DNA from: Henckelia pumila
Taxonomy: Eukaryota; Streptophyta; Magnoliopsida; Lamiales; Gesneriaceae
NCBI RefSeq assembly: GCF_033568475.1
Contig: NC_133123.1
Coordinates: forward strand, 150,489,753-150,553,752
Direction: 5' to 3'
DNA: 64,000 nucleotides
The notes below the pieces were generated by a model, which had not been told where the DNA came from, did not search any database, and was given only the letters and a program-made list of their open reading frames with translations. The position numbers and the translations under genes were made by a program. This document shows positions 8,483-62,443 of this stretch, piece after piece; position 1 is the first letter of the stretch, and the number at the start of each line of letters is the position of its first letter.

Positions 8483-8483
8483 A

Positions 8484-8502
8484 TTGGCACCGTCTGTGGG
8501 AA
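8484..8502 (+). other. tRNA primer-binding site of the Tat element
   Basis: TTGGCACCGTCTGTGGGAA directly after the LTR. It differs at one base from the TTGGCGCC-type PBS commonly seen in Tat-lineage elements. The matching tRNA was not determined. Confidence 0.8.
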
Positions 8503-8523
8503 TTTGAAAGAAAAAGATTTTCG

Positions 8524-9483: not shown

Positions 9484-10560
9484 GATAAATATTGTCACTT
9501 TCATAATGAATATGGGCATACTACAGAAGACTGCCGACAATTAGATCATGAGATTGAGAGGATAATACAACAACATTCTGAAATAAAAAATATTTTGATC
9601 CGACAAGAGGGGTACCGTCCGAAAAGGAAACAACGAGGAAGATCGAGGCAGAGAGCCAGGACTACTCCTCCTCAGGAGGATTTCAATCGCCCAAATCAGG
9701 ACTAGCCTAGGGATGACCGAGCTCATCAAAGATCGGCTCCGCCTGCTCGGGGAATTATCAATATGATTTCAGGAGGCCCTACTGATGGATATTCCAATCG
9801 AGCTAGAAAAACTAGCAGCCGAAAATTAGTAAATATGGAAATTGACAATCAAACTGTCAACATTGGCCCGACCCTTTCTTTTGGGCCGGAAGATTTAAAA
9901 GGGGTTGCTAACAACCATAATGATGCACTGGTAATAAGGGCCATGGTAGCGAATTACGATGTGGCCCGGATATTTGTGGATTCAGGCAGTTCTGTCAATG
10001 TTCTATTTCAAGAAGCTATCAATCAAATGGACCTGGGATAGTATAGAATAGAGCTCGTTGTCACATCACTCTTTGGTTTCACGGGTCATGCAATCCGGCC
10101 TGTGGGGTTAGTAAATCTGCCCCTAACTCTTGGGAAAGGCAACGGTCGCAAGACCAGGATTGTGATTTTTATTATAGTAGACGCTCCGTCTGCCTATAAC
10201 GCTATACTGGGTAGACCTGCCATGACCACTTTCATGGCCGTCGCATCAGCTCTGCATCAGAAAATTAAGTTCCCAGTGGGTAATCAGGTCGGTGAGGTGC
10301 AAGGTGATCAAGTTATTGCACGAAAGTGTTATGTGGAGGAGGTCAGAATATAGCAAAAAGTAGCCAGGATTGATAATGTTGACAGACCTGGATTTGCTGG
10401 CATGGAAAAAGTCAACTTGATAGAAGACACATCTGTCACCGCTGAAGAAGAAATTGAAGAAATAATTATCTCCCCTCCTTCGGGGATGGTAAAAATTGCC
10501 CGTACCCTTGAAGCAGAGGTGAAGCAACTACTACTGAAATGCTTGCAAAAAAAATAAAGA
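9484..10560 (+). pseudogene. Tat gag C-terminus and aspartic protease, broken
   Basis: Continuation of the gag frame past its stop. A CCHC-like knuckle (C-x2-H…GH…C, about 9496-9535) comes first, then a basic linker and a retroviral-type aspartic protease with the active-site motif VDSGSS (about 9978-9995) and the downstream ILGRP motif (about 10206-10220). In-frame stops lie at 9481-9483, 9703-9705, 10039-10041 and 10351-10353. Near 10545-10555 an A-rich run ends the frame and coding moves to the next frame. The short open pieces 9763-10041 and 10102-10353 are fragments of this region, not separate genes. Confidence 0.85.
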
Positions 10561-13500: not shown

Positions 13501-13617
13501 AGGCCCATTCAAGGTGATAGGAAAAGCTGGCATAGCTGCATATTACTTGGAAGATGCCCAAGGCAAGAGGGTAAAAGGCCATGGAATGCTCAACACTTGA
13601 AAAAATACTATCCCTAG
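10561..13617 (+). pseudogene. Tat pol: reverse transcriptase, two RNases H, integrase
   Basis: The main open frame is 10826-13600 (924 codons), but RT sequence begins upstream at about 10561 and is cut by a TGA at 10820-10822, where a CGA arginine codon would be usual. RT catalytic YVDD is at residues 94-97. A first RNase H follows at about residues 240-360, then a second one of archaeal type starting IFVDGSS near residue 371. Integrase has an H-H-C-C zinc finger from about 588 and the D-D-E core: D in MDIVGPF near 658, D in SDNGRQF near 715, E in GQVEV near 753. The last segment (…WNAQHLKKYYP) is in another frame ending at 13617, so a frameshift lies near 13570. Together with the gag stops this makes the copy non-autonomous. 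Confidence 0.93.
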
Positions 13618-13799
13618 TAGCTCAGCTTGGGCCTCATCATGCTATAGCTCTCTAAGCTGGATAACCACTTAGTCATTCTCTTTTTGCTATTTATTTTTCA
13701 ATCTTTTGCAAAAGTCAGTCCTGGTTTATTTACTTTACGGTCAGTCCTGTTTAGCGTCAATTTTTGGGAACAATTTAAATGCAAAAGTCAATTTTGTTT

Positions 13800-14575
13800 T
13801 ATGGAACTTACCACTCAAAGTCCACTTCAGTGGCCCACATCAGTGGAATTCAAAGCCCAGGCAGGTCTGGCACCCAAAGTCCACCTCAGTGGCCCACATC
13901 AGTGGAATTCAAAGCCCAGGCAGGTATGGCGCCCAAAGTCCACCTCGGTGGCCCACATCAATGGAATTCAAAGCCCAGGCAGGTATGGCACCCAAAGTCC
14001 ACCTCAGTGGCCCACATCAGTGGAATTCAAAGCCCAGGCAGATCTGGCACCCAAAGTCCACCTCAGTGGCCCAAATCAGTGGAATTCAAAGCCCAGGCAG
14101 GTCTGGCACCCAAAGTCCACCTCAGTGGCCCAAATCAGTGGAATTCAAAGCCCAGGCAGGTCTGGCACACAAAGTCCACCTCAGTGGCCCACATCAGTGG
14201 AATTCAAAGCCCAGGCAGGTCTGGCACCCAAAGTCCACCTCGGCCACCTGGCACACAAAGTCCACCTCAGTGGCCCACATCAGTGGAATTCAAAGCCCAG
14301 GCAGGTCTGGCACCCAAAGTCCACCTCAGTGGCCCACATCAGTGGAACTAAAAGCCCAGGCAGGTATGGCACACAAAGTCCACCTCAGTGGCCCACATCA
14401 GTGGAATTCAAAGCCAAGGCAGGTCTGGCACTCAAAGTCCGCTTCAGTGGCACGCAAGGACCACATCAGTGGAACTAAAGGCCCAGACAGGTCTGGCACT
14501 CAAAGTTCACCTCGGGGGCCCACATCAAGGGAATTCATAGCCCAAACAGGGTTGTCATACAAACTTCATCAGTCT
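13800..14575 (+). repeat. 59-bp tandem repeat array in the Tat element
   Basis: About a dozen copies of a 59-bp unit containing 'aaagtccacctcagtggccc' and 'ggaattcaaagcccaggc'. Starts near 13871 and 13930 show the exact 59-bp period. One unit near 14229-14258 is shortened, and the last two or three units drift. Because 59 is not a multiple of three, the array is read in successive frames, and all three forward frames stay open (13684-14478, 13706-14581, 13779-14351). I regard these as by-products of a stop-free unit, not proteins. It sits between the end of pol and the antisense gene. Confidence 0.95.
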
Positions 14576-14581
14576 TATTAA

Positions 14582-15080
14582 ATGGTCAAGCAGGACTGGT
14601 TAAACAACACGGATAAAAAATTCATAGGGGTTCTGATTTCCAGGAATGTACCTGGACCCTTGAAAATTTTCAATCAATTTTATGGTTTCTTATATATATT
14701 GGACAGTTCGGGTGTAAGAGGTCGGGATTTTAATAAAGTATATTGCATGAGTTCCCGCCAAGCTCTTAACCCGGTCCAGGCACAGGAAGGTCATGTCTTC
14801 AAGATTTCATCATTTAATCAGCTCGGTCACATATAGGACGGGTGTGTAACTTCTTACACTTGGTAAAAAATCGTGGCGTAATTGTTATTTGCATTCATAG
14901 CAAGCATATAAAAAACCTGAGTTGGGCAAAAACATGCATAACAAGCAGAGATGGGCAAAAACATTTCATTGAATAACATTGTATCAGCCCGATCTGGGCA
15001 ACAACAAAACTAAATGATCGCGCAGGGTCTACCATATAGGTCATGTTTTAAACAGGTATTACAGAAATAATCAGGGGGCG
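14582..15080. other. Tat internal spacer between array and antisense gene
   Basis: Non-coding internal sequence. The 84-codon frames at 14582-14836 (+) and 15010-15264 (-) show no recognisable domain. The stretch 'gggcaaaaacat' occurs twice near 14925 and 14953. Nothing else is seen. Confidence 0.5.
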
Positions 15081-15088
15081 GGGGCGTC

Positions 15089-17057
15089 TTAGGGCTTAGA
15101 GCTTTGTTCGGGATCCGAGGGTTTTTCTTGCTCAGCCTCCTCAGAATCCTCTTCGGGCATGTCATCAAGAGCTTTGGAGCAATCCAGGAAAGAAGCGGGG
15201 TGCTCGGCCTCGGAATATCCATTAGCCCTGAACTGGGCAAGACATCCCTTGAAGCCCTCGTCAAAAAAGGTTGCTGCCTTCTCAGCTACTGCATTAGCAA
15301 AGTCCGCGGAGTCCAAAAACTCCTTTTTTCCAAGCTCCTTGGCAGCTTTCAGTTCTTGGTTCAAGGCCCGCACTTGGACCTCCAGCTCGATCTTCTCCAC
15401 CTCCAGCTCGGAACATTTGGTGGTGACAGCCTCCAGAGCTGTGCGGCAGGACTCAGCTTCAGCACGGAGACCGAGCTGTTCCTCTTCATACTCTTTTTTC
15501 ATCTCACGGGTTTTTCGCGTGAGTTCGGAAATCCGAGCTACGAAGGCTTCTTGATTCAGGGCATGGTCTTCTCATTCCTGGGAAGCTCGACTGGTGATAT
15601 CCCCGCCCCAAGCTAAAGCCTGTGATAATATGAAAGGATGAACACTAGCTCGGTGTATAAGCTAGGAATTAAAACACAGTAACATACCTGCATGAAGGCC
15701 AAAGCAAAGTTTTGTTCAGCCTCAAGATGAGTTACAGCTTGTAGAATTTTTACGTCACCTCGGGAGATCAAGTTTTGCATTATGCCCAGGGTCCCTTGGG
15801 GATCGGGCTTTGAGAAAAAGGACAGGTCAGGTAGCCCGGGCTGAGCCGCCGTACCCCGGCGCTCCATGTCCTGAAGAGATCCAAAATCCTCTACCGGGCT
15901 TTTGCCATGAGGTCGGGATGATAAGGAGGAAGGTGGTGGTGGAAGTTCGGAAGCCGTAGTATGCCCTTGCTCCTTAGCCTTGGAGGATTTTTTCTTAGGC
16001 GGTGCAATCAGTCCAGCCTCGGGTTTTGAGCTAGCCTCCGCGTCCTCTGATTTTTTCCTTTTCAGATTCTTCAAGGCAGCTTTGAAATTTGCAGGCATGG
16101 TGGCGGATCTGATTCTGTCATCTAAACAAATAAAAGTGCAATGAATAAATAAATTGTATGTCTCAATTAGTCTAAATATTGGTAGTACGGGAACAGGGGT
16201 ACTACCTACATCCCCTTCGATCTCTACTCCTTTCCCACTGAAGCCGTAATGGCAGAGCAGATCATCCCCGATCAGGTTCTCGATGTCAAAAATTTGAACA
16301 GACATGGTATTGAGAAAATTGGTAAAATTATGGGATGGTAGAGCCGGGGGGTCAGGAGTGGTGAAATTCATAGCCCAGTTACCTCGACACTCCCAGGCCT
16401 GGGTAGGCTTAACATAGAAATATCTATTGGTCCAACCTTTGTGAGAGCTTGGCTTTCCCCTTAAAAAGGGGTATTCGGGTCGCATGGAAATGTAAAAACG
16501 GCCCGGGGCAGTCTTCTTAATTTGAAGGAATTGAATAAAATTTCCTATGTCTAAGGGAATTCTGAAAAAACAAAATAGAACAGCTAAGGATAAGATCAAA
16601 CTAAACGAGTTCGGGGACAATTGACTTGGGCACACACAAAAATATTGACAGAGCTGAGATACGCAGCTCGGGATTGGGAATCTCAAACCCATTCTTACTT
16701 GATCTATGCTGAAACTTAAAAAACCAGTAGGTGGTTTGTGAGCTCGGTCTTTACGGCCCGGGATTATGAGCTCATAGCCCTCAGGCATTCCCGATCTCTC
16801 TCTAATACTAGGACCCAGGTCAGGGCTCAGGTGGGAGGCCAAGACCTCATACCATTGTCTACCCTTAGCAGATAAACGGGTCTCATCCGACCTAAGTTTG
16901 TGTAGTCGCTTTAACTTTTCTATACGAGTCTCCGATAAATCCAACTCGAAGCTTGGATTATTGGAATCAGAGGGCTCGGGGTTGTTAGAGGGAGAGTTGG
17001 GTGCTTCGATAAAAGATACTACTTCTTTAACGAAAGTTTCGTCGGGGGAAGACATGT
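15089..17057 (-). CDS. Antisense gene of the Tat element (gypsy-type 'Transposase_28'-like protein), with introns and one stop
   Basis: It runs opposite to gag-pol. The likely start is the MSSPDETFV methionine at 17057; the open frame reaches 17217, but the extra residues look like leader. The first part carries the conserved 'SQLSPNS…LILSL' and 'RFYISMRPEYPF' blocks I associate with the plant 'putative gypsy type transposon' family. Two GT-AG introns are visible: about 16208 to 16124 (boundary GATGTAG/GTAGTACC, acceptor TTTGTTTAG) and 15687-15620 (68 nt, ATGCAG/GTATGTT, acceptor ATTATCACAG). A lysine-rich, then Ser/Pro-rich linker follows, then a coiled coil (about 15500-15300) and an acidic tail. 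In the third exon a TGA near 15570 interrupts the frame, so this copy is probably defective. Function is unknown; such antisense ORFs are documented in Tat elements. Confidence 0.75.
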
Positions 17058-17502
17058 TAATCAACCTAGTGTAAAGGTGGGAGGACTTACAGGTGAGAGA
17101 GTTGTAGCGCGGGATTGACAGAAACGATAAAGGCAGCTCGGGATTGCGCAGTCCAGGTCGGGAGGGCTCTCGAAATTCTTGCAGTGTAACAGTACAAAAG
17201 TAAAAAGTAACAAACAAAATTTTACCGATTCATATATATAGAGATGGTGAATCGATCTGGACCGTTGATTTTTTACTGGATCTACGGCTCGGGACGGGAC
17301 AAGTCAAGGTTTTTGGCTTCGATAAATGAACCGTCAGGGGACATCTGAGTCGTTCATGAAAAACACATCACGCGGATTCTGATCTGGACCGTCCAAAAGA
17401 AACACATTTCATGAATAAAATGCTGGACTGTTCTAGGGACACATTTACAGTGCAGGGACCAGACTCCATTCTTAGTCTAAACTCATTCTTCTTTTAGACC
17501 AG

Positions 17503-17517
17503 TTCGGGAGGTACTAT
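17503..17517 (+). other. Purine-rich tract before the 3' LTR of the Tat element
   Basis: GTTCGGGAGGTACTA-type sequence immediately before the 3' LTR, in the position of the polypurine tract that primes plus-strand DNA synthesis. It is short and impure, so the exact limits are uncertain. Confidence 0.5.
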
Positions 17518-18122
17518 TGATACCCCGTGAAATTATTTTAACCCGAATCCGTTCGTTATGGGTTTATGAGGGTTGGCCCAATTATTGAATTATAATCATT
17601 AGGTAAGGTCCAGCCCAGTTTTACACCTGTTAGGGCTTTACTTAAACTGGGCTGTTATTTATGGGCCGACCAGAGCTGGTCCCTAATGGGCTGGATGGAC
17701 TTCTCTTACATGCATTGTGGATAAGTTTGACTATCTCGAGATATTTATGAGATGGGGATAAACTTGAAGGCGGTCTAATGGATGAAGAGTCCCAGTACAG
17801 GACATGTTATAATTCGACTAGGTAACTTACTCTATTTTTCCTATAAATACAGGTATTGTTATGGTTGTATTATTGATTATTCATCACACATTCACTCTCA
17901 CTTTTATATTCACGCACTCATATCTCTCAGTTTTCGCATTAATCATACCCTCTGCCTTCAAGACACTGACTTAGGCATCGGAGGGGTCACGCTGAAAACA
18001 CTTTCGGCGCCCCTTGACCTAGCTGTTGCTTGCGCAGATTTCATTAATATCCGACCCGACCTACTCTATAAAGGAATTGAAGGATCCATTCTACCAGACC
18101 GAACCCAAAGTAAAATTCATCA
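17518..18122 (+). repeat. 3' LTR of the Tat element
   Basis: 605 bp, TGATACCCCG…ATTCATCA, followed by the target duplication GATTG (18123-18127). Relative to the 5' LTR it shows about 14 substitutions, nearly all transitions, and lacks a few bases near its end ('ttcgacat' in the 5' LTR). Confidence 0.95.
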
Positions 18123-33333: not shown

Positions 33334-36181
33334 TGAAACGACCCTAACTCTATAATAAATAAATATGCGGAATTTTTTTTTTTTTTTATACTACTAAATA
33401 AAATATGTACATATATGCCCATACATATATGCACAGGATAAAATATTTAAAATAAATACATGGCTAAATAAATAAACAATTAAATACTTAAGAAAAAATG
33501 CATTCTTTAAAATAATTAAACATCTGAGTCAACCCTAGAATTAAAAATATACTGCATAAATAAAATAATTAAAATATGTGCATGCACTAAAACATTTAAT
33601 AAAATATTCCCATAAACCTCAACCACTAAAAATATAATAAAATGTTTCACATGAAATCATGCACGGTGACTCAGAAGCTGTCACGGTCACGGGGCTACTG
33701 CAGCGCTGCTCATACGTCCTCACCACCGGTAGGAGTAACCTGCTCCTCTACGTACTCACCTGCACCATATCAGTGTAGTGAGCCTAGAGGCCCAACATGC
33801 ATACTAACAAGGGTTCAAAATAATTTAAAACAATTTAATACTAATACATACATATACATGAATGAGCATGCTTAAAAATTACATAACATAACTTACTTAA
33901 ATAAACATAAATACATAATACATAACATACATACTTGAGTTGTTGAGCATTTATTTTCTTAACATCGAATGGTCCTATCCGTAAGTGTGACCCATAGTGC
34001 GACTGATCAGTCTAAGAAACCATCGTACGAGGCTGGTGGCGAACCACCCATACATAAATGGCAGAAAACTGCCCATACATAAATGGCAGAAACCGCTCAT
34101 ACATAAATGGCCACACTACTTCAATTTCCACCTAAAATATTTTATTTGCTCAACCATAGAAATTAAATCATAGCATAAAAATTGATTTCATGAATGCATG
34201 TACTTAAATAAATTGTGTGTCCTTCATATATATTTAATTTAATTTTCTTACTAACATATAAATATTAAAATAACTTAAATGCATAAAAATAATTAAATAT
34301 ATAATCAGGACACATGCAATTTTCTCATGGATGGTTCTGGACTGCTGGCCCTACACTCAAGCTCATTAACTTAAATCTGGCCCATTAACATACTTAAGCC
34401 CAGTAACTTAAACTTTAAGCCCAATTAATTAATCTAAGCCCAATTAAATTAATTAAGCCCATTAAAATTACACTAAGCCCAATAACACTTAAACTGGCCC
34501 ATTGGGCCCAAAAACCCAAAGACTGGCCCATTAACTTTTATGGGCCCAAAAGCCCATAAAATTAATGGACTAACTTAATTAAAATTTTAAAAGTTCAAAT
34601 AAAATTATTTGAGAGTCCAAATAATTTTATTTTAATTTAGTTGACTCAATAAACCATTAATTCATAAAATATTTTAAAAATAAAAAGACTCGAGCCCGGC
34701 CCACCAAACCCGGACCCGGACCCACTTAACCCGACCCACTAACTTACTGACCCGACCCGAGCCCCTGACCCGACCCGGAACATGCCAAAACCCTAGCCCG
34801 ATCCCCCCTTCCCAAAACTGTTCGGCCACAGTGAGCAGCCACCGAAAATCCCGGCGGCCGCCTTGCTCCGACCACCCACCGGCCGGAGGGACACCCCTAG
34901 GACTTAGCTCACATCCAGACCTTTTCAACAAGCCAAGAACCAGCCCAAACCGTCGACTATGGAGTGAGAACGAAGCTCTGCAACCCGGCCCTTCTGCACT
35001 GTCGCACAGACCCGAGCAGCTGCGGGAAAACCATTCGTCCTCGAAGCTCCGACCACGAAAGCCCATGAAACCTTCTGCAAAAACTTAGAAAACTCAAAGG
35101 GGGTTCTAACCCAACCGACCGTACCCAAAATAGTGGCCTGAGGAAAAAGATCTCAGCCTTCTTCCCCAGAACCCTAAACCTGCGCGACAGAAGCTTCAGA
35201 AAGGAAAGGCTTCGTTTCCTTTCTTCCTTAGCCTCAAGCCCCGACCTGACTCGACCCAAGGGACCTTGATACATGTATCCAACTAAGGAGCAGCAGCCAT
35301 GATCCATCCATGCAAGAAAACGTGAGTATGAAACCCAAAACAATGCAAGAACAAGGTGCAACATTAAAAATTGAAACTTTCTGAAAAATATTCTTGGAAA
35401 ATCTGATGTATACACGACCACACATGCATATACTAATATGGAGAAGAAAAGAGAATGAAGAATCATGCCTTTCACCGTAAATATGGATTTAACACGCGTA
35501 GGAAGGACTTCAGGACGACGGGGCGACCTTGGGTTGCTTGGAACCTTGAAACCGACCTTCTATGGAGTTCCTAGGGTTGAAGATCGATGAAGAAGAAGGT
35601 GGGATGAAAGTGACGGCTGATGGGGGAGAAAACAATCGGCTAGAAGGGTTTGGTAGATTAGGGTTGATTTATTTTTGTGTTAAATAGAATATAGGTTAAA
35701 TAATTAAATAAAAAGGTTTTAAATAATTAATATACAACTCAAACTCTTAATTAAACTTTAGAAATCTGATAACATAAAATAAATCTCGAAATAATAATTT
35801 AGGGGAATTTTAAAAATACTAAAAAGTCAATATTTTGACTAATTTTTGGATAAAAATGACCCCTAAAATTAAATAAAATTAAATACTTAAAATTTTGAGA
35901 TAATAAAACTCAAAATAATATTTTAAGGCTCCAAAAAGGCTCATAAAATTATTTGGCTAGAAAGTTGTCATCTCGTCCGTCCACGGTCCCGTCTACGCGA
36001 TTAAATAATAAAAATACTAAAAATCATAAAAATCACTAATTATGGGTTAAATGCTTAGAAATAAATTAAATCATGCATAAATAATTCACATAATTATTTA
36101 ACCCATAAATCATAAATTTAATTAATTAAATATCCTAATTATGCAGGCGGATTTATGTAATTAAAAATACCGAGTGTTACA
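33334..36181 (-). repeat. 3' LTR of the chromovirus
   Basis: 2,848 bp; on the minus strand it begins TGTAACACTCGG and ends GGGTCGTTTCA. It includes a (T)n/(A)n run near 33370, repeated 'agccca' words at 34370-34560, and a GC-rich block near 34690-35250. Minus-strand open frames 34674-35066 and 34957-35475 recur in the other LTR and are non-coding LTR sequence. Confidence 0.95.
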
Positions 36182-36206
36182 ATTCTCCCCCCCCTTAAAT
36201 TGAATT
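36182..36206 (-). other. Polypurine tract of the chromovirus
   Basis: On the minus strand AAGGGGGGGGGGAGAATT directly before the 3' LTR, the expected primer for plus-strand DNA synthesis. Confidence 0.85.
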
Positions 36207-36227
36207 TCGTCCTCGAAATTAAAGTAA

Positions 36228-38501
36228 TTACCCGAACAACTCCGGGTAGCGAGTCCTCATATCCTCCTCGGTCTCCCAAGTAGCTTCCTCCTCCGAGTGA
36301 TTCAGCCACTGGACTCTGACCATCGGTATGACCCGCGTCCTAAGCCTCCGCTCCTCTCTAGCCAAGATCCGCACTGGTCTCTCCTCGTAAACAAGATCTG
36401 GTGGCAACTGTAAGGGCTCGAAATCCAATACATGCGACGGATTGGAGACATATCTCCGAAGCATGGATACATGGAAAACGTTGTGCACTGCCGCTAGCCC
36501 TGGTGGTAGAGCTAAACGATAGGCCAACGTGCCAACTCGCTCCAAGATCTCGAATGGCCCTATGTATCTCGGATTAAGCTTGCCTCTCCGCCCAAAACGC
36601 GCTACTCCCTTCATAGGTGACACCTTCAAGAATACGTGATCACCTACCGCGAACTCCAAATCGCGTCGTCTGGCATCCGCATAACTCTTCTGCCGACTCT
36701 GCGCTGTCCTCATCCTGTCTCGAATCTGCGTCACAATGTCAGCTGTCTGCTGCACAATCTCTGGACCCAACAAAATCCGCTCACCAACCTCATCCCAATG
36801 CACCGGAGATCTGCATCTCCTCCCATACAGTGCTGCATATGGAGCCATACCTATAGACGACTGAAAGCTGTTGTTATAGGTAAACTCCACTAATGGCAGT
36901 CTAGTCTCCCAAGATCCTCGAAAATCGATGATACAAGCTCTCAAAAGATCCTCGAGAACCTGGATCACTCTCTCGGACTGACCATCTGTCTGTGGATGAA
37001 AAGCTGTACTGAACAAGAGTCTAGTCCCCAAACCTGTGTGCAGACTCTTCCAAAACGCTGAGGTGAACCTCGGATCTCTGTCTGATACAATAGACACTGG
37101 TATGTCATGCAGTCTAACAATCTCTCTGATGTAAAGCTCTGCATACTGTGTCAAAGTGTAAGTAGTCCTTACCGGCAAGAAATGAGCTGACTTGGTGAGT
37201 CTATCCACAATCACCCAAATCGCTGTACACCCTCTGGTACTCCTCGGTAAGCCAACCACAAAGTCCATCGTAATATTCTCCCACTTCCATTCCGGAATAG
37301 GGAGAGGTCTAAGAAGTCCTGCTGGACGCTGATGCTCTGCTTTGACTTGCTGACAAGTCAAGCACTCTGACACCACTCTCCCGATGTCGCTCTTCATCCC
37401 AGGCCACCAATACAATAACTGTAAGTCTCGGTACACCTTCGTACTTCCGGGGTGAATGGAGTACGGAGATGCATGAGCCTCTGCTAGAATCTCGGCTCTC
37501 AACTGATCAACGTTCGGTACCCACATCCTCCCACGGTACTGAACGATGCCATCCTCCACTGTATACAAGAGACTACCTCTGGCCTCATCTCTCTGTCTCC
37601 ATCGCTGTAGCTCCTCATCAGTGGACTGTCCCTCTCTAATCCGATCTCTCAAAACGGGCTGCACCGTCAACACTGACAAGCTCGGTGCATGGCCGCTCGG
37701 ATAGCACTCCAACCCAAACCTCTGAATCTCGGTCTGTAGTGGTAACTGTACAGTCAAACATGATACCACTGACGACTTTCGACTCAAAGCATCTGCCACT
37801 ACATTAGCCTTACCCGGATGGTAGCTAATGTCACAGTCATAGTCCTTAACAAGCTCAAGCCATCTGCGCTGCCTCATGTTCAACTCCTTCTGGGTGAAGA
37901 AGTACTTGAGGCTCTTGTGGTCGGTGAAAATCTTGCACTTCTCGCCGTAAAGATAGTGCCTCCAGATTTTCAACGCAAAAACCACTGCTACAAGCTCCAA
38001 ATCATGCGTCGGATAGTTCTGCTCATGAATCTTCAACTGTCGCGACGCATAAGCGATGACTCTGCCACTCTGCATAAGTACTGCGCCCAAACCAAACTTA
38101 GACGCGTCGGTGTACACCACTAACTCCTCATGTGGCACTGTCATAGCTAACACCGGTGCTGAAGTAAGTGCATCCTTCAGCTGATCAAAGCTCCTCTGAC
38201 AATCTGAACTCCAACTATACTTCGCGTTCTTCTTGGTCAAGGAAGTCAAGGGTACTGCAATAGAGGAAAAACCCTTGATGAACTTCCTATAGTATCCTGC
38301 TAAACCCAAGAAGCTACGAATCTCCGAAGCATTCTTTGGAATCCCCCAATCCCTCACTGCCTGCACCTTGGACTGATCCACTGCAATCCCATCCCTAGAA
38401 ATAATGTGGCCTAGAAACGCCACCCGCTCCAACCAAAACTCACACTTACTGAACTTTGCAAACAGTCGATGCTCCCTCAAAGTCTGCAAGGCTGTATGCA
38501 A
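36228..38501 (-). CDS. Chromovirus Pol: RT C-terminus, RNase H, integrase, chromodomain
   Basis: 757 codons. Residues 1-60 finish RT ([14 protein letters not shown]…[12 protein letters not shown]). RNase H follows at about residues 125-250, with [25 protein letters not shown] and FTDHKSLKY. The integrase zinc finger (H…H…CLTC) starts near 345. The catalytic core has [15 protein letters not shown] and [13 protein letters not shown] for the D-D-E residues. The C-terminus has [10 protein letters not shown]…[12 protein letters not shown], then a chromodomain ([21 protein letters not shown]) that is thought to guide insertion into heterochromatin. It begins at an internal Met because the frame is broken from the upstream RT part (38477-39556) by a small deletion just after the YSRS segment near 38515. 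Confidence 0.95.
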
Positions 38502-39591
38502 ATGCTGTGTATGCTCCTCGAGTAGATCAATATGTCATCAATGAATACAATGACAAACTGATCTAGATACGGCTGGAAGACACGATGCATGAGATCCATA
38601 AAAACTGCTGGAGCATTGGTCAACCCAAAGGGCATCACCAAGAACTCATAGTGCCCATATCGTGTCCTAAAGGCAGTCTTAGACACGTCTGAATCTATAA
38701 CTCTCAGCTGATGGTAACCAGATCGCAGATCGATCTTGGAGAATACCGAAGCTCCCTGCAACTGATCGAATAAATCCTCTATCCTCGATAGCGGATACTT
38801 ATTCTTCACTGTGACTCTGTTGAGCTCTCGGTAGTCAATGCACAATCTCATGCTGCCGTCCTTCTTCTTCACAAACAACACTGGAGCTCCCCATGGAGAA
38901 AAGCTAGGACGAACAAAGCCCTTCTCCAACAGCTCCTGAATCTGCTCCTTCAACTCTCTCATCTCTGTAGGAGCAAGTCGATACGGTGCCTTAGAGATAG
39001 GCACAGTATCCGGCAACAACTCAATACTGAACTCCACCTCCCTCACTGGTGGAACTCCTGCAACATCGTCAGGAAAAACATCTGGATAGTCACGTACCAC
39101 CTCTATATCTGATAAAGATCTGCTAGAAACGTCTGAGGTAGTGACCACACTAGCAAGAAAACCTTGACATCCATTGCGCAACAGTTTCCTCGCACGAACA
39201 AGTGATATCATCTGAGGAATACTGCTAGACTGAGATGCAAAGAAAGTAAACATCTCACCTCCTGCTGGCTTCACTGACACTGTCCTACGTCGGAAATCAA
39301 TCGAAGCTCCATTAACTGATAGCCAGTCCATACCCAAAATCAAGTCGAACCCAGTCAATGGAAGAACCACTAGATCTGCTCGAATGGAGTGTCCCTGCAA
39401 CTCCAATGCCAGATCCCTGATGACACTAGTGGTAGTGATAATCTGTCCGGATGGCATGGTAACATCGTAACCACTGTCTACAACCTCCGGTGAAATGCCT
39501 ATCCGTCTGATAAAATCTCGGGAGATAAACGAATGCGTGGCTCCTGAATCTAGCAACGCAAACGTGGAGTTGCCTCCAACTAGAATTCTCC
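38477..39591 (-). CDS. Chromovirus Pol: protease and reverse transcriptase N-terminal part
   Basis: The open frame from the first Met is 38477-39556 (359 codons), but coding probably resumes at 39591 after the intron-like gap, adding [12 protein letters not shown]. Protease active site LDSGATHSF is at the start. RT is recognisable from [18 protein letters not shown], with [32 protein letters not shown] and the catalytic FIDD ([11 protein letters not shown]). After that the frame is wrong for six residues and stops, so RT is split from 36228-38501. Confidence 0.92.
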
Positions 39592-39787
39592 CTGCACGCA
39601 GAAGATTCCCAACAATTCATACCACTATGCTCCCAAGGTTAAAACACTAAAATCCTTAATTCTAATCACAAAGAAACAAAATTCTTATTCTAGCATGCTG
39701 ATAATTAAACTCATGTAACAGGCATTCAGATATAATCGCAATTAAACAAAAGCAAAGAATTGAGAAAGTTCTAGGGGTTAGGTATAC
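39592..39787 (-). other. Intron-like segment between gag and protease of the chromovirus
   Basis: 196 nt on the minus strand, beginning GTATACC after ACCG and ending …CTTCTGCGTGCAG before GGAGAATTC. Removal would join the gag frame (…DTSLITG) directly to the protease frame (RILVGGNST…) with no lost residue, and would also remove the stop at 39771. It is AT-rich, with a pyrimidine-rich stretch (TTTTGTTTCTTTG) ahead of the acceptor. Supported by frame and splice-site fit only. Confidence 0.6.
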
Positions 39788-40835
39788 CGGTGATCAAGGA
39801 GGTATCTGGGTCTGCCTCCTCAGCCTGCATCACATAAACTCGCCCACTGACATTCTGCCTCTGCGGGCAGTTGGCAATCTGATGCCCTGGCTCCTTGCAA
39901 CGATAGCAGACTCCTGCTCCCAATAGACACTGCCCGGAATGCATTTTCTGGCACTTCGGACACACTGGATATCTCCCTGGAGTAGGGGCCCCGCCCCTAG
40001 TCTGCTGCTGTGGCTTCCCCTGAGGCCTCTGCTGATTCGGGCCCTTAGATGGCCCTGTAGACTGTTTCTTCGCAGGTGGCTGCGAAGATGGTCGTTGATA
40101 CCCTGTCTGCACAAACTGCCTCTTACCCTGCTGCTCTCTCTGTATCTCCCTCCGTCCCTCCTCGGAATGCAAGGCCCTGCTGACTGCAGACTCATATGTA
40201 AAGACGTCTGCCATACGTACGTCATGCCTGATCTCAGCCCTCAAGCCCTCAACAAACTGTCGCAGCTTCTCCTGCGGACTATCAGCAATCATGGGCACAA
40301 AATGACAGCCCCTCTCATACTGGCTCACATACTCCACCACAGATCTGTCCCCCTGACGGAGACTCATGAACTCTCGGATCATGCGACTGCGCACATCCTC
40401 AGTGAAATATTTTGCGTAGAAGATACGCCTGAACTCAGCCCACGTCAGTGTAGGTAGATGGACTCCTCTGACTGCACCCTCCCACCAAAGGGCTGCATCG
40501 CCTCGCATCATATATGTAGCACAGTTCACCCTGTCGGCGTCTGTGATCCCCATATAGTCGAAAATGGACTCAAGAGAGCGAATCCATCCCTCAGCCACCA
40601 ACGGATCGATGGTCCCCACAAACTCCTTAGGCCCCTTCTTCTGGAACCTCTCTGCGACGTCCTCCTCGTGGGACAGTCTGGGACGGGCAGCCTGCTGCTC
40701 CAGCAAGGCAGTAATACCCGCCATCATCGTGGCACTGGCCTGCTCCAGTGCTGTCATGGGGTGCTGCTGAGGTGGCGGTGGAGGTGGAGGTGGATGTGGA
40801 GGTCTCCCACGTCGATTCACCTGTCTGGGAGGCAT
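39771..40835 (-). CDS. Chromovirus Gag
   Basis: The start is set at MPPRQVNRRGRPP (40835); the open frame reaches 40850. An N-terminal proline run (about residues 14-22) is followed by a Retrotrans_gag capsid domain at about residues 75-190, with EGWIRSLESIFDYMGI and WAEFRRIFYAKYF. A basic Gln/Pro linker leads to two cysteine clusters: C-x2-C…C (CPKCQKMHSGQC) and a classic CCHC knuckle CYRCKEPGHQIANC. Gag forms the particle. The unspliced reading stops at 39771; a GT-AG segment there could fuse it to protease. Plus-strand frames in this interval are shadows. Confidence 0.93.
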   Translation of the reverse strand: MPPRQVNRRGRPPHPPPPPPPPQQHPMTALEQASATMMAGITALLEQQAARPRLSHEEDVAERFQKKGPKEFVGTIDPLVAEGWIRSLESIFDYMGITDADRVNCATYMMRGDAALWWEGAVRGVHLPTLTWAEFRRIFYAKYFTEDVRSRMIREFMSLRQGDRSVVEYVSQYERGCHFVPMIADSPQEKLRQFVEGLRAEIRHDVRMADVFTYESAVSRALHSEEGRREIQREQQGKRQFVQTGYQRPSSQPPAKKQSTGPSKGPNQQRPQGKPQQQTRGGAPTPGRYPVCPKCQKMHSGQCLLGAGVCYRCKEPGHQIANCPQRQNVSGRVYVMQAEEADPDTSLITGIPNP

Positions 40836-41002
40836 TCTGCACCACCACATATTTATTTACGTAAATCGCCTTGCATAACTAAGTGTTTAAAATTTAAGGC
40901 TAACTTAAATTATAGAAATTAAATCATACTATAAACATTTAAAACTTACAGACCGGTAGCGTGAATTTCTGAGCTCGCAAAGCAGTAATGACCCCTCCAA
41001 GG

Positions 41003-41021
41003 ACCGTGCTCTGATACCAAC
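41003..41021 (-). other. Primer-binding site of the chromovirus
   Basis: On the minus strand TTGGTATCAGAGCACGGTC just inside the 5' LTR. TGGTATCAGAGC is the standard complement of the 3' end of plant initiator methionine tRNA. Confidence 0.92.
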
Positions 41022-43868
41022 TGAAACGACCCTAACTCTATAATAAATAAATATGCGGAAATTTTTTTTTTTTTATACTACTAAATAAAATATGTACATA
41101 TATGCCCATACATATATGCACAGGATAAAATATTTAAAATAAATACATGGCTAAATAAATAAACAATTAAATACTTAATAAAAAATGCATTCTTTAAAAT
41201 AATTAAACATCTGAGTCAACCCTAGAATTAAAAATATACTGCATAAATAAAATAATTAAAATATGTGCATGCACTAAAACATTTAATAAAATATTCCCAT
41301 AAACCTCAACCACTAAAAATATAATAAAATGTTTCACATGACATCATGCACGGTGACTCAGAAGCTGTCACGGTCACGGCGCAACTGCAGCGCTGCTCAT
41401 ACGTCCTCACCACCGGTAGGAGTAACCTGCTCCTCTACGTACTCACCTGCACCATATCAGTGTAGTGAGCCTAGAGGCCCAACATGCATACTAACAAGGG
41501 TTCAAAATAATTTAAAACAATTTAATACTAATACATACATATGAATGAGCATGCTTAAAAATTACATAACATAACTTACTTAAATAAACATAAATACATA
41601 ATACATAACATACATACTTGAGTTGTTGAGCATTTATTTTCTTAACATCGAATGGTCCTATCCGTAAGTGTGACCCATAGTGCGACTGATCAGTCTAAGA
41701 AACCATCGTACGAGGCTGGTGGCGAACCACCCATACATAAATGGCAGAAAACTGCCCATACATAAATGGCAGAAACCGCTCATACATAAATGGCCACACT
41801 ACTTCAATTTCCACCTAAAATATTTTATTTGCTCAACCATAGAAATTAAATCATAGCATAAAAATTGATTTCATGAATGCATGTACTTAAATAAATTGTG
41901 TGTCCTTCATATATATATATTTAATTTAATTTTCTTACTAACATATAAATATTAAAATAACTTAAATGCATAAAAATAATTAAATATATAATCAGGACAC
42001 ATGCAATTTTCTCATGGATGGTTCTGGACTGCTGGCCCTACACTCAAGCTCATTAACTTAAATCTGGCCCATTAACATACTTAAGCCCAGTAACTTAAAC
42101 TTTAAGCCCAATTAATTAATCTAAGCCCAATTAAATTAATTAAGCCCATTAAAATTACACTAAGCCCAATAACACTTAAACTGGCCCATTGGGCCCAAAA
42201 ACCCAAAGACTGGCCCATTAACTTTTATGGGCCCAAAAGCCCATAAAATTAATGGACTAACTTAATTAAAATTTTAAAAGTTCAAATAAAATTATTTGGG
42301 AGTCCAAATAATTTTATTTTAATTTAGTTGACTCAATAAACCATTAATTCATAAAATATTTTAAAAATAAAAAGACTCGAGCCCGGCCCACCAAACCCGG
42401 ACCCGGACCCACTTAACCCGGCCCACTAACTTACTGACCCGACCCGAGCCCCTGACCCGACCCGGAACATGCCAAAATCCTAGCCCGATCCCCCCTTCCC
42501 AAAACTGTTCGGCCACAGTGAGCAGCCACCGAAAATCCCGGCGGCCGCCTTGCTCCGACCACCCACCGGCCAGAGGGACACCCCTAGGACTTAGCTCACA
42601 TCCAGACCTTTCCAACAAGCCAAGAACCAGCCCAAACCGTCGACTATGGAGTGAGAACGAAGCTCTGCAACCCGGCCCTTCTGCACTGTCGCGCAGACCC
42701 GAGCAGCTGCGGGAAAACCATTCGTCCTCGAAGCTCCGACCACGAAAGCCCATGAAACCTTCTGCAAAAACTTAGAAAACTCAAAGGGGGTTCTAACCCA
42801 ACCGACCTTACCCAAAATAGTGGCCTGAGGAAAAAGATCTCAGCCTTCTTCCCCAGAACCCTAAACCTGCGCGACAGAAGCTTCAGAAAGGAAAGGCTTC
42901 ATTTCCTTTCTTCCTTAGCCTCAAGCCCCGACCTGACTCGACCCAAGGGACCTTGATACATGTATCCAACTAAGGAGCAGCAGCCATGATCCATCCATGC
43001 AAGAAAACGTGAGTATGAAACCCAAAACAATGCAAGAACAAGGTGCAACATTAAAAATTGAAACTTTCTGAAAAATATTCTTGGAAAATCTGATGTATAC
43101 ACGACCACACATGCATATACTAATATGGAGAAGAAAAGAGAATGAAGAATCATGCCTTTCACCGTAAATATGGATTTAACACGCGTAGGAAGGACTTCAG
43201 GACGACGGGGCGACCTTGGGTTGCTTGGAACCTTGAAACCGACCTTCTATGGAGTTTCTAGGGTTGAAGATCGATGAAGAAGAAGGTGGGATGAAAGTGA
43301 CGGCTGATGGGGGAGAAAACAATCGGCTAGAAGGGTTTGGTAGATTAGGGTTGATTTATTTTTGTGTTAAATAGAATATAGGTTAAATAATTAAATAAAA
43401 AGGTTTTAAATAATTAATATACAACTTAAACTCTTAATTAAACTTTAGAAATCTGATAACATAAAATAAATCTCGAAATAATAATTTAGGGGAATTTTAA
43501 AAATACTAAAAAGCCAATATTTTGACTAATTTTTGGATAAAAATGACCCCTAAAATTAAATAAAATTAAATACTTAAAATTTTGAGATAATAAAACTCAA
43601 AATAATATTTTAAGGCTTCAAAAAGGGTCATAAAATTATTTGGCTAGAAAGTTGTCATCTCGTCCGTCCACGGTCCCGTCTACGCGATTAAATAATAAAA
43701 ATACTAAAAATCATAAAAATCACTAATTATGGGTTAAATGCTTAAAAATAAATCAAATCATGCATAAATAATTCACATAATTATTTAACCCATAAATCAT
43801 AAATTTAATTAATTAAATATCCTAATTATGCAGGCGGATTTATGTAATTAAAAATACCGGGTGTTACA
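41022..43868 (-). repeat. 5' LTR of the chromovirus
   Basis: 2,847 bp, nearly identical to 33334-36181. Differences seen include a 4-bp indel near 41540, a TA-repeat length change near 41910, and scattered single substitutions. The open frames at 42361-42753 and 42899-43162 (-) mirror those in the other LTR and are not genes. Confidence 0.95.
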
Positions 43869-58585: not shown

Positions 58586-60448
58586 GTGTAAGAGTGGGTG
58601 CCCAGTGAGCCAACTGTGTGGCTATGGGCTTTGTTGACTCTTTGTATAAACAATCTTTTGTTTAATATTATTTACACTTTTATGGCAATGACTTTATATT
58701 ACTTCATATTGTTATATTGTGATATACTATTGTTGTTTTGATAAAGACCTTGAATATACTATAGTGTATGTAAGATGTGGTAGAACATGGAGATGTCTAT
58801 CATGAAATACATCTTATAGTCACTGTATATTCTAAAACCGTTCCTAGTCGATTGAGCCGTCCGATAATAAGGATAAGGATCGCTCGAGTTTGAGACTAGC
58901 ATTTGCGATGCGGAGTACCACGTTTCATTGGTAGGGAACATGGAGATGTTCGAAGCATGCAAATGGATATTCATAGGATGAATAGTCGAACTACCCTATC
59001 CGGACTTTCCAAGTGGTTATCACTTATCGAGTGGATAAAGTCCGCGGTTTTGGTTGTACACCATTAGTCCTTACGACTTGAAACATCATGGAGACTCTAT
59101 ATGCTAGTACTGTGCTTTGACTCGTTTACCGACTCTGAGGGGGTCATCAGGTGTCGAGATTGGGTACAGTTACGACACATATAGGAGTCAATGCATTGTT
59201 GTCAAGGATTCACCACATACTTGCGAGTGTGGATATCCTATGCGATCTGAGGAGATATTAGTGTGACAAATCTCTGGCCAGAGTACTTGATGTGATTTAA
59301 GAAATGGTTTCTTAGTAGCACATGCGATGTCACTAATTTGATCTTCAAGATGCATTGCATAGTTATCGAATCTTGAGCGACTCTCGATATACCAATGGTT
59401 GTTGATTCGATCGGGATATATGGATGAAGGGACCGTACTGTACGCTAACCAAAATCTACTGGTTCTTGTAGGCACTATCAGTGATACCTAGGGAATCATG
59501 GGGCGATGTTGCTAGGCGCTTTACCATGATTCGTTGGGCAAGTCGGAAAGTGTTGTTCCGAGTCACAAGGAGTTGTGAGCCCACGGCTAGCTGTATCCCT
59601 GAACCATTGAGGGTCACACAGTGTAATGGAGTTTTAATCCCCGTTGAGATAGTTAAATTTAAAGAGTTAAATTTAATGAACTAAGGAGTTGGACTTCTTA
59701 AATAAGAGTAAGGGAGTAGGATTTCCTAAAATGACATAGGGATGGACATTTTTGGAAACCACTGAATTCGGATTCAGGAAAATTTATTTTGACTTTAAAA
59801 CGTGCAGAAATGGTTTCTGTGCACATTGGTGAAATCGTTTCATCAATCGGAGTCACGATGAATTTTATATTAATTTCTGAACGAGCGGGCTTTGCTTGTC
59901 GGGCCCCAGCTTATGACTAATGGGCCCTAAGGTGTTAGTGGCCTGCATTATAAATAAGTTATTTCAGTACAGAAATTACACACAACAGGTCATAATTTTG
60001 AGACAGGATTTTCGAAACCCTAGCCCCTCTCAAAACGTTTTCGGCCGCCCCTTCCTCCCTCTGCCCGAGAAAATTCCGGTCTGTGATTTTGAATCGCAGT
60101 AAGGAATAACGAATCAAATTCGTGTATTCTCTTCGCAGAAAACTTCTGATAGATTTTCTAGTGCAATCTATCAGAGGGATTAAACCTCTGTTCGTGGACC
60201 TGATTGAAGGCGTTCATCGGTTCCAGGGAGAGACAACAAGAGCAGAATTGTTCTGTTGGTGTCCATTAATCTCGTTGCGAGATTTAAGGTAAAATTTAAT
60301 TAATTGTTATTTGAATTTTACACACACGTAATTCAATCGATGAACGGTTGATACCCATACCATGGAAACGTTCCATGAAAAATTTTTAAACTTCCGCTGC
60401 ACCGGGTATCAATCGTAATTGGTCTGGGAACTCGCCAGTTTTCCAACA
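58586..60448 (+). repeat. 5' LTR of the intact copia element
   Basis: 1,863 bp, TGTAAGAGTG…TTCCAACA. TATA box TATAAATA at 59949-59956; transcription probably starts a few dozen bases later. A splice-donor-like AAG/GTAAAA lies at 60286-60294 near the LTR end. Short frames within it (58759-58974, 59188-59475, 59481-59684) are non-coding LTR sequence. Confidence 0.9.
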
Positions 60449-60449
60449 G

Positions 60450-60462
60450 TGGTATCAGAGCC
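60450..60462 (+). other. Primer-binding site of the copia element
   Basis: TGGTATCAGAGCC two bases after the LTR end, complementary to the 3' end of initiator methionine tRNA, the usual copia primer. Confidence 0.95.
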
Positions 60463-60570
60463 AGGTTGCTCAGATCAATCGATTGAATAATCAATTGTAC
60501 AAAATTTTTGAGTCTCGGTTTATGAAACAAAATAAATATTTTTAATAAAAAAATTTTTTCGGGGCAAAAC

Positions 60571-60910
60571 CCGGGCAGCGATTGGATCGCTGCCCGGTGG
60601 GGCAGCAATTGTTGCTGCCCCGGGCGGCGCACGGCGCCGCCCAAAGGGGGCGCACAGCGCCGCCCAAGGCGGCGACCGTCGCCGCCCAGGGCGGCGCACG
60701 GCGCCGCCCAGGGCAGCGCTGTGCGCTGCCCAGGGGCGGCGCTCGGCGCTGCCCAGCGCAGCGCTGGGCGCTGCGCAGGGCGGCGCTCGGCGCCGCCCAG
60801 GGCAGCGCACGGCGCCGCCCAGGGGCGGCGCCAGGCGCTGCCCTAAGGGGGCAGCCGGGCTGCCCCCGGCCCGCGCCCCGGGTGCGGGCCGACCCGGGAG
60901 TGTCCCGGGT
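60571..60910 (+). repeat. Array of 15 GC-rich triloop hairpins in the copia leader
   Basis: Consecutive inverted repeats separated by one to a few bases, each with exactly three loop bases: 60571-60597 (12-bp stem, loop TGG), 60599-60621 (10 bp, TTG), 60622-60642, 60646-60665 (one bulge), 60668-60686, 60689-60709, 60711-60731, 60734-60754, 60756-60776, 60778-60798, 60800-60820 (one mismatch), 60823-60843, 60847-60867, 60868-60890 (10 bp), 60892-60910. Mean period is about 22 nt. Stems switch between GGCGGC/GCCGCC and GGCAGC/GCTGCC types, keeping pairs. The open frames on both strands here (60520-61005 minus, 60582-60929 plus) are by-products. Confidence 0.95.
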
Positions 60911-60979
60911 GGCCCGCGGGAAAAATTAATTTTTAATTTTTTATTAATTTTAATATTTAAAATTTTATTTTTGGTCCGG

Positions 60980-61352
60980 TCAAAAATTGTTTTTGATTGG
61001 TTCACGAGATTTCGGATCGAATTGTTCGAGTCCGTAAATTTTAAAATTGATTTTGGATAAATTTGAATTTTTGGAAAATTTTAATATTTTATCCGTAAAT
61101 TGAATTTTGAAATCAATTATTTTGGTACAATTGATGATAAGATATGATCTTATGATATATTAGATAAAATATGATTTTATTTGTAAAATTGGATTTTATA
61201 GATAAAATATGATTTTATTTGATATGGAGATAAAATATGATTTTATATGTGAAATGTGATTTTATATATAAAATATGATTTTATCTTGTTTAAATTTGAA
61301 TTGCCACAGCATGTTATCCAATAAATTAATTTTGAATTAAATGTTATTGGAT
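60980..61352 (+). repeat. AT-rich triloop hairpins following the GC array
   Basis: Isolated ones at 60980-60996 (TCAAAAA/TTTTTGA, loop TTG), 61014-61033 (GGATCGAA pairing with one bulge, loop TTG) and 61066-61080 (AATTTT/AAAATT, loop TGG). Then an array of seven at 61137-61153, 61164-61180, 61184-61198, 61202-61218, 61230-61246, 61249-61265 and 61268-61284, mostly ATAAAAT/ATTTTAT with loop ATG. A longer composite hairpin at 61315-61352 again has a TTG triloop (TTAATT/AATTAA). Confidence 0.85.
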
Positions 61353-61972
61353 AAGGATGATCGATTGCCATGACCAATTTTGTAGGTGTATGTTAGGAAT
61401 TTACATTTTGTCTTTATTGTTGTTGGTTTTATTAATGGGCCTGGTTTATGGCCCGATATGAATGTCATATGTAATAAAAGTGGGCTTGGTTTATAGCCCG
61501 TTCCCACCCCCTAAAAATGTATCCCCTACTTGTCATTGTTATTTAATTGTAAATACATTAGATTTAGTGGGAGATCAAGATTTGAAGATGGTGGGCCCAG
61601 CAGACAATGAAGACTGAAGAAATGTAAATTGGAAGCATATGTAATAGGATTGCATTTGCATACTGCATATTACCTAGGATTGGACTAAGACCCGTGATTG
61701 GCAACCACGGGTCAATTAGAAATGGAATCGATCATCCTATATAATATGTGATATTATGATTGTATGCATGTTTAGACATAAATTGCGTGAATCCGGCAAT
61801 GCATGCAATAAATTAAAAATGATGAGACAAATATTTTTATAAATAAAATCCCTCATTTTAAATATGATTTAAAATTTATATCAAGATAAATAAAGGAAAT
61901 TTAAATATTGTTTAAATGTTCCTACCTTCCATCAACGGTCAATGTATGTGATGCTACCCGCGGATACGGTCC

Positions 61973-62254
61973 GGCTCATATTATTGGGGGGGCCCGTTCG
62001 TCGGAAAGCTGTACATTGGATCGACAAATGTTGTAAGTTGGGTGGAACTCCCATGGGATCGGCTCATATTATTGGGGGATCCACATGGCGACCGTCCATC
62101 ACAACTTAATATTGATGGGTCATCTTGACATGTCACTTTAAACGGCGTCATATTATTGGGCCCTTATTGGACATGAGGTAAATACATGGGGGTTGCTTTG
62201 GAAGCAATTGGGCTCTACCTTTTGAGAATTATGGTTGGCTGATATTATTCGGGA
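61973..62254 (+). repeat. Degenerate ~88-bp repeat with TCATATTATTGGG core
   Basis: Four copies of a GGCTCATATTATTGGGG-like phrase at 61973, 62061, 62144 and 62237, spaced 88, 83 and 93 bp. The intervening sequence is only loosely related. It lies in the copia leader upstream of gag and is non-coding. Confidence 0.7.
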
Positions 62255-62443
62255 CCATAAGTTTGTCAATTGGACTCCATGTTCTCACTAAGGAAAAAGT
62301 TTCCCGTTTTCACTAGAGGGTGGTGAAATCGTTAAAATAGTGGGAGTGAGATTCATAAAATTAAATTCGCCTATTTTATGTCTTAGTAAATTGTTAAACA
62401 ATCATTGATATATGTCTGTTTTTCCTTTTCAGTATTTCACACA

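Follow-up and report, generated by a model that had tools for sequence, protein, structure and literature searches.

Hairpins of the sense strand with 3–4-nt loops ending in G run through a Ty1/copia element of Henckelia pumila, and an array of hairpins in the leader of this element is the extreme case of that wider pattern. The element lies in the window, i.e. the whole stretch of 64,000 nucleotides that was analysed. The array had been singled out in an earlier note made from the sequence alone; it is real, and the hairpin pattern proved much wider than the note had described. What goes beyond the note are the sense-strand loops ending in G, their occurrence in the AT-rich part of the leader, in the LTR and, in related elements, in the coding region, and a leader that resembles an intron. 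That these hairpins are selected in the sense RNA seems to us very probable. That they form a packaging code read by Gag, with the leader as an intron, is a tentative reading to which we give nearly an even chance, and in it the binding by Gag, the packaging and the splicing are all putative.

The element is a plant Ty1/copia retrotransposon, with copia-type gag and pol domains (Pfam Retrotran_gag_2, Pol_BBD and gag_pre-integrs), a primer binding site (PBS) and an LTR. The array was found where the earlier note had placed it, between the PBS (60450) and the gag ATG (62444). The PBS, TGGTATCAGAGC, is presumably of the initiator Met-tRNA type, and transcription would start near 59980, judging from the sequence. 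Homology extends from ~58950 in 28 of 29 other flanked copies; the remaining copy, L039, shares the LTR only from the equivalent of 59980, as would result from replacement of U3 up to the R boundary. The features of the element are as follows.

58950–60449, + strand: 3′ portion of the 5′ LTR, with 8 short-loop hairpins ending in G; the LTR starts upstream of 58950
59949–59956, + strand: TATA-like box, from sequence
59980–60288, + strand: predicted first exon (R-U5), with zero ATG in the window copy
60268–60284, + strand: hairpin AATCTCG-TTG-CGAGATT, directly 5′ of the predicted donor
60289–62432, + strand: predicted leader intron (donor AAG/GTAAAA, acceptor TTTTCAG/TAT), containing the PBS, the GC-rich array and the densest hairpins
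60361–60377, + strand: G-loop hairpin CATGGAA-ACG-TTCCATG; relatives include TATGGAA-TCG/TTG-TTCCATA
60450–60461, + strand: primer binding site, from sequence
60571–60910, + strand: GC-rich array of 15 triloop hairpin units, from sequence, fold and shuffles
60921–60964, + strand: a pair of AT-rich triloop hairpins whose loops, TTT and TAT, lack the final G
60976–61000 and 61013–61034, + strand: two conserved TTG-loop hairpins, with covariation in relatives
61137–61284, + strand: AT-rich triloop hairpin array, mostly ATAAAAT-ATG-ATTTTAT
61741–61757, + strand: hairpin ATAATAT-GTG-ATATTAT; most relatives have an ATG loop
61855–61875, + strand: hairpin ATTTTAAAT-ATG-ATTTAAAAT; form in L069, ATTTTGAAT-AAG-ATTCAAAAT
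61961–62000, 62053–62087, 62144–62162 and 62229–62260, + strand: four hairpins with a common CATATTATTG/GATATTATTC loop region and different stems
62193–62207, + strand: hairpin TTGCTT-TGG-AAGCAA; relatives include TTACTT-TGG-AAGTAA and TTGCAT-GGAG-ATGCAA
62444–64000, + strand: start of gag to integrase, with one CCHC knuckle and 7 short-loop hairpins ending in G at stems of at least 5 bp

The hairpin at 60268 has the loop ATT, CTT or TTT in most relatives and is therefore not a conserved G loop. The four CATATTATTG/GATATTATTC hairpins, just 5′ of the predicted gag acceptor, form another repeated hairpin family, of which each of 15 sampled relatives has two or more sites; some of the stretches fetched end before the last sites.

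The earlier note had described 15 triloop inverted repeats. All 15 units are present, although a claim for every stem would be too strong: taken one by one, 10 units are perfect, 3 hold one or two G-U pairs (60734, 60822 and 60868) and 2 are defective, with an arm short by one base (60646) or an A opposite a C (60800). Exact triloop stems of at least 7 bp number 9 in the array, against a mean of 0.17 and a maximum of 2 in 500 dinucleotide shuffles, and the fold energy of 60560–60930 is −338 kcal/mol (z −16). As the note had argued, the array is not a random GC-rich tract; the shuffles and the fold z-score rule out both this origin and chance. Triloop hairpins go on past the end of the array (60921–61284): the AT-rich block 60911–61300 holds 8 exact triloop stems (0.17 in shuffles), and 61120–61300 folds with a z of −8. 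Each 3′ arm of the array also pairs with the next 5′ arm, and for this reason the predicted minimum-energy fold joins several of the middle units into longer stems; 15 separate hairpins are thus not the predicted minimum-energy state. In order, the loops read TGG TTG ACG ACA CCG ACG TGT TCG TGG TCG ACG CAG CGG CCG GTG, with G as the last base in 13 of the 15 units (the fourth unit, which has a bulge, being placed as in the predicted fold).

Sense-strand loops ending in G

Hairpins with a 3–4-nt loop ending in G and a stem of at least 6 bp were counted region by region and compared with the mean of shuffled sequences. In the window element, observed and shuffled numbers were 8 vs 0.14 in the LTR, 15 vs 0.30 in the leader outside the array, 8 vs 0.40 in the array and 2 vs 0.15 in the coding region. 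Exceptions in the window are the loops TGT, ACA, TTT and TAT. A gag–integrase profile scan of bacterial assemblies supplied ten further loci (L001–L010). L001–L006 look like plant retrotransposon DNA in assemblies of Streptomyces, Labilibacter, Solirubrobacter and Geminicoccus; two scans of IMG/VR returned zero relatives. The excess was present in L002 (leader 8 vs 0.22, coding region 10 vs 0.48, 3′ part with LTR 11 vs 0.29) and in L005 (positions 1–1370, 5 vs 0.20; leader 12 vs 0.52; coding region 8 vs 0.38; rest 25 vs 0.68). Triloops are in excess in L002, L005 and L006, and on the coding strand most of them have G as the last base; tetraloops are also in excess in L005 and L006, and AGAG prevails among them in L005. 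By the same test no G-loop excess was found in L001 (leader 1 vs 0.22, coding region 0) or L003 (1 vs 0.47), L004 was borderline (3 vs 0.31, a number reached by 3 of 200 shuffles), and L007–L010 showed no excess. Two of these lineages have leader motifs of their own: CCCTTCGGTGG occurs four times in L001 (1768, 1863, 1934 and 2168), which is without G loops, and GTGTGGTTTACC twice in L004 (1138 and 1219), which has few.

Relatives within the host were sampled through a motif for HTDVCGP, which has 11,986 places in the genome. Sixteen were chosen from the first 100 listed, all on contig C1 and most of them picked for motif variety, and their leader regions were fetched; one (L064) was dropped as belonging to another family, with 1 hairpin and zero G loops. 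The 15 elements retained have 320 short-loop hairpins; the last loop base is G in 293 of them and the first is C in 13, and loops ending in G prevail in each element. Counting distinct hairpins, G is the last loop base in 83/95 triloops, 30/40 tetraloops and 13/28 5-nt loops, and no such excess was seen for loops of 6–12 nt. A PBS match is present in 13 of the 15 elements. By eye, 12 of these 13 carry a GC-rich island ~110 nt past the PBS with one to many hairpins, and among the 12 only L065 and L078 have a large array as in the window family. No GC-rich island follows the PBS in L069 (~70% identical), where the favoured loops are GGTG (four times), GATG (twice) and GGAG; those of the window clade are mostly TTG, TGG, ATG and TCG.

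Outside the element (window 1–58999) the strand bias was absent, with 7 of 48 triloops ending in G and 7 of 48 beginning with C. In three blocks of ~20 kb from this region, hairpins ending in G number 0, 6 and 3 and those beginning with C number 5, 8 and 2 (shuffle means ~2 and 3). In the second and third blocks all hairpins with 3–4-nt loops taken together exceed 30 shuffles, without strand preference, and in the second those ending in G do so as well. Together with L001 and L003, this region rules out the bias as a general trait of plant non-coding DNA or of all retroelements. The control region also contains long direct repeats in two sets (33375–42421 and 7871–17817), spaced 7.7 and 9.6 kb, which by eye are probably LTRs of Ty3-type elements; a tandem array with a 59-bp unit (13812–14544), downstream of a polyprotein that looks Ty3-type; and tandem units with inverted repeats around TGGCTAA...TTAGCCA (2698–2936).

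Within open reading frames, hairpins were compared with 300 synonymous-codon shuffles each, which keep the protein and the codon use (stem at least 6 bp unless stated). The coding region of L002 holds 10 G-loop hairpins vs 0.93, that of L005 8 vs 0.61 and that of L006 5 vs 0.40, and in all three no shuffle reached the observed number; the coding DNA of L006 is 90–97% like that of L005, so these two are not independent. For gag–integrase of the window the result was 2 vs 0.20 (6 shuffles reaching it) and, at stems of at least 5 bp, 7 vs 0.65 (0 reaching it). L004 gave 2 vs 0.33 (12), L003 1 vs 0.55 (124) and L001 0. Many stem-loops with a common loop motif are thus found in coding RNA also, most clearly in L002, L005 and L006.

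Stem changes around unchanged loops were observed at several hairpins. In one hairpin, whose loop is AGAG in L005 and L006 alike, three pairs differ between the two elements in both bases. With L005 as the reference, all G-loop hairpins together show 7 pairs compensated in L006, 3 kept through a one-sided change and 4 broken, and with L006 as the reference 6, 2 and 7; the corresponding numbers for other hairpins are 8, 10 and 18, and 6, 4 and 13. In the host clade, the hairpin at 60361 occurs as CATGGAA-ACG, TATGGAA-TCG and TATGGAA-TTG, with the final loop G in 14/14 rows. The hairpins at 60976–61034 are paired in 97.1% of cells, with four pairs changed on both sides, and at 61326, 61456 and 62193 the loop has 3 nt in some elements and 4 nt in others, the final G being mostly kept. 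Covariation at 61855 is weak (80 of 500 shuffles equally high). In an all-against-all test, two-sided changes stayed paired at a fraction of 0.70 in G-loop hairpins, 0.40 in random pairs and 0.77 in other hairpins, and the unchanged fraction of the stem was 0.931 in G-loop hairpins vs 0.844 and 0.835; an unmasked version was similar (0.919 vs 0.834 unchanged; two-sided changes 366/510 vs 352/456). Here, only slower stem change sets the G-loop hairpins apart from other hairpins. Because the pairwise two-sided changes do not, our conclusion is not rested on that test. Conserved RNA secondary structure is found for the G-loop hairpins, weakly for 61855 and, as regards two-sided changes, without separation from other hairpins.

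The predicted leader intron and possible readers

The leader looks like an intron, with a donor motif in U5 and an acceptor motif just before gag. The donor motif AGGTAAAA is present in 14/14 alignable elements (window included; L069 and L074 unalignable) and the acceptor motif TTTTCAGTAT in 10/10 (six being unalignable or cut off early), while several positions near both motifs vary. Across the 13 elements with a TATA-like box, window included, the predicted first exon holds 5 ATG in 3999 nt vs 69.7 expected; ATG is the rarest of the 64 trinucleotides there, with AGT, TAG, TGA and GAT occurring 51–103 times and GTA 17 times. In the window copy the predicted intron contains 54 ATG. Among the loci from bacterial assemblies, donor-like sites precede the PBS in L001, L005 and L006, whose predicted first exons contain 0, 2 and 1 ATG, respectively. 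In L002 the sequence upstream of the PBS gave GTATG sites alone, and neither a GTAAG nor a GTAAA donor was found there. In 6/6 of L001–L006, a CAG or TAG resembling an acceptor stands no more than ~10 nt before the frame-opening ATG. The position of the hairpins in the 5′ leader and the splice motifs fit a signal restricted to unspliced RNA.

According to the model that we favour, this copia clade would mark its genomic RNA with a hairpin code, each signal consisting of a stem of ~6–12 bp and a 3–4-nt loop, mostly with G as its last base, in the sense transcript. Gag would contact the exposed loop G through its CCHC knuckle or another part, and many weak sites read cooperatively would together give tight recognition of the genomic RNA, in cis or, for gag-less relatives, in trans. 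Use of the donor in U5 and of the acceptor before gag would yield a spliced RNA for translation (no PBS, no array and a nearly AUG-free leader), and the unspliced RNA, retaining the PBS and the densest hairpins, would be packaged and reverse transcribed, so that splicing would separate messenger from genome. The loop letters would shift as Gag changes. Next to the primer site, arrays would have been amplified to more than 15,000 unit copies in one genome, growing, shrinking and inverting through slippage or template switching between like units, with those units still able to fold being retained. We hold this composite account to be possible, and somewhat more doubtful than not. Packaging had been suggested as a possible role of the array in the earlier note, and as a possible role it is supported.

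A reader of short sense-strand loops ending in G would fit a Gag CCHC knuckle, by analogy with the nucleocapsid (NC) proteins of HIV-1 and MoMuLV (see below). In L005 and L006 the open frame begins close to the protease region, immediately past the acceptor (~4770 and ~5418, respectively); similarity to the window protein sets in at residue 247, a short way past the acceptor, and the forward frames gave no CCHC match. They are apparently gag-less, yet keep the hairpins, as a cis signal served in trans would. L001, L003 and L004, in which G-loop hairpins are lacking or barely seen, do have a CCHC knuckle. An element's own knuckle therefore does not predict its hairpins, and the loop G may instead be read by a different part of Gag or by some other protein.

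Such a reader might be a protein of the host, or a protein of the element other than Gag, acting in RNA export, stability, translation control or escape from silencing. The selection on sense RNA speaks for it, as do the failure of the CCHC knuckle to predict hairpins and the hairpins of the gag-less L005 and L006. However, loop preference varies between lineages within one host, as the comparison of L069 with the window clade shows, and lineage-specific loops fit an element-encoded reader better than one host protein. We consider a reader other than Gag unlikely, though a serious candidate.

Turnover of the array and other explanations

A query with the leader returned 3084 candidate stretches in the host genome, of which 40, all aligned and 97–100% identical, were scored; they comprise 33 distinct array haplotypes. 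The array differs in length among them by whole 22-nt units, about 15–17 in number: the stretches measure 360–363 nt (15 units), 375 nt (L048), 383–386 nt (16) or 407–408 nt (17). Parsing into units, achieved for 29 of the 40, gave 14 units once, 15 in 20 copies and 16 and 17 in 4 each; the unit numbers rest mainly on length because L041 and L058, of 16-unit length, were parsed as 14 or 15. Variable columns per 100 number 11–24 in the four bins of the array, 9 in the bin before it, 1–4 in the next fourteen bins after it and 11 in the last. The array of L048 contains the reverse complement of a 50-nt block that is present forward in 21 of the 40 copies and inverted in this one, a record of palindrome-mediated inversion or strand switching.

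The earlier note had also described covariation between the arms of units within the array, and this holds in a larger set. Across the host genome, the unit pattern GGGCNGCGCNNNGCGCNGCCC matches at 15,903 places (reversed control, 0). Among the matches listed, 75 distinct places were found and 72, in 29 elements, could be oriented by the HTDVCGP motif (3 dropped). The loop ends in G in 64 of the 72 and begins with C in 5. Their variable arm bases form G-C in 23, A-T in 27, G-U in 15, A.C in 6 and T.T in 1, an odds ratio of 6.9 (P = 3e-4) among units that, within one array, share descent. Among other copies of the array, L057, L059 and L062 have G-C in place of A-T as the outermost pair of their last unit; uncompensated changes occur too, as in the third unit of L030 and others (A opposite C) and in the last unit of L062, which also holds an unpaired change.

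These data bear on a neutral origin, in which reverse transcriptase, copying a fold-back or switching templates, creates short palindromes and multiplies them, none of them functional. Shifts by whole 22-nt units, the inversion within L048 and a variability far above the 1–4 columns per 100 of most of the leader are what such growth would produce, and since the units are alike, their stems match partly through descent. The copying error that the note had offered as an alternative can explain how the array grows and is reshuffled; it does not explain the sense-strand G loops or the hairpins in excess of synonymous-codon shuffles. Neutral growth predicts neither a G at the last loop base on one strand, nor an excess over such shuffles inside open reading frames, nor stem changes around an unchanged loop G, and L001 and L003, of the same superfamily, are without excess. 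As an explanation of the whole pattern we regard it as quite improbable.

Plant pararetroviruses have structured leaders and ribosome shunting, and a leader of ~2 kb with strong structure and 54 ATG in its predicted intron could likewise serve cap-independent translation or shunting. The conserved splice-like signals and the near ATG-free first exon suggest instead that the leader is removed before translation, and hairpins also lie in the LTR and, in relatives, in coding sequence, so that we give this explanation very little weight. Least credible is the array as a source of ~22-nt small RNAs, which the note had also suggested. The unit period of 22 nt and the longer stems into which the array can fold speak for it; against it, single stems of 8–12 bp are short for Dicer-like enzymes, and neither the G-loop rule nor the AT-rich hairpins would be explained.

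Comparison with known systems

How RNA is chosen for packaging in plant LTR retrotransposons appears little described, our literature search having returned yeasts only. The copia G-loop pattern supplies a concrete, strand-specific motif and a place, the predicted leader intron. Lineages with and without the motif, with differing loops, and gag-less elements that keep it form a natural experiment, which makes a direct test of packaging possible. The pattern further suggests that synonymous sites in transposons come under selection for RNA structure, and the hypervariable array records reshuffling among the element's own copies.

The retroviral packaging signals are a close parallel for the proposed contact. 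In HIV-1 (SL2/SL3) and MoMuLV (UCUG), hairpins or linkers of the 5′ leader expose a G to CCHC knuckles: in GGAG and GGUG hairpins the knuckles of HIV-1 NC bind the G at the end of the loop, and the single-knuckle NC of MoMuLV binds UCUG (PMC7599994, in part). The same source, in part, describes that HIV packaging tolerates some changes of the GGAG loop, which counts against the loop-G reading. As in our proposal, the unspliced RNA is the packaged form. Unlike the retroviral signals, the window clade has dozens of small hairpins, an array of ~15–17 units and G loops in the LTR and in the coding region of relatives; gag would here come from spliced RNA, and binding by Gag is putative.

Repeated CGG-CCG palindromes, as in the window array, also occur in other plant copia elements, the Sireviruses, where they are found either in the LTR, 5′ of the TATA box, or next to the env-like gene, and where a role as transcriptional cis-elements is discussed (PMC2829016, in part). 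This placement does not apply to the window array, which has the TATA-like box ~620 nt and the PBS 110 nt upstream of it. In contrast to the Sirevirus motifs, the window hairpins are in the leader, follow a sense-strand loop rule and include AT-rich forms. BARE is a plant copia element with splicing and separate RNAs for translation and packaging, and its Gag-deficient form BARE2 is packaged through the Gag of BARE1 (PMC3735527, in part), a situation that the gag-less L005 and L006 may recall. The BARE intron is 104 nt long and near the end of gag, whereas the predicted intron of the window is a leader of 2.1 kb that includes the PBS. The literature searched, which mostly excluded subscription papers, described neither a hairpin array nor a leader intron for plant copia elements, nor dispersed packaging signals for a plant retrotransposon.

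The distribution of the hairpins also agrees in kind with the dispersed packaging signals of RNA viruses and of HBV, i.e. many stem-loops with a short common loop motif throughout the genome (PMC6281560 and PMC7612645, each in part). There, contact is with the capsid protein, whereas in the copia elements such contact is putative. The stem-loops of the HBV core signals carry RGAG loops (PMC7612645, in part), and this motif resembles the GAG, AGAG and GGAG loops of the copia elements.
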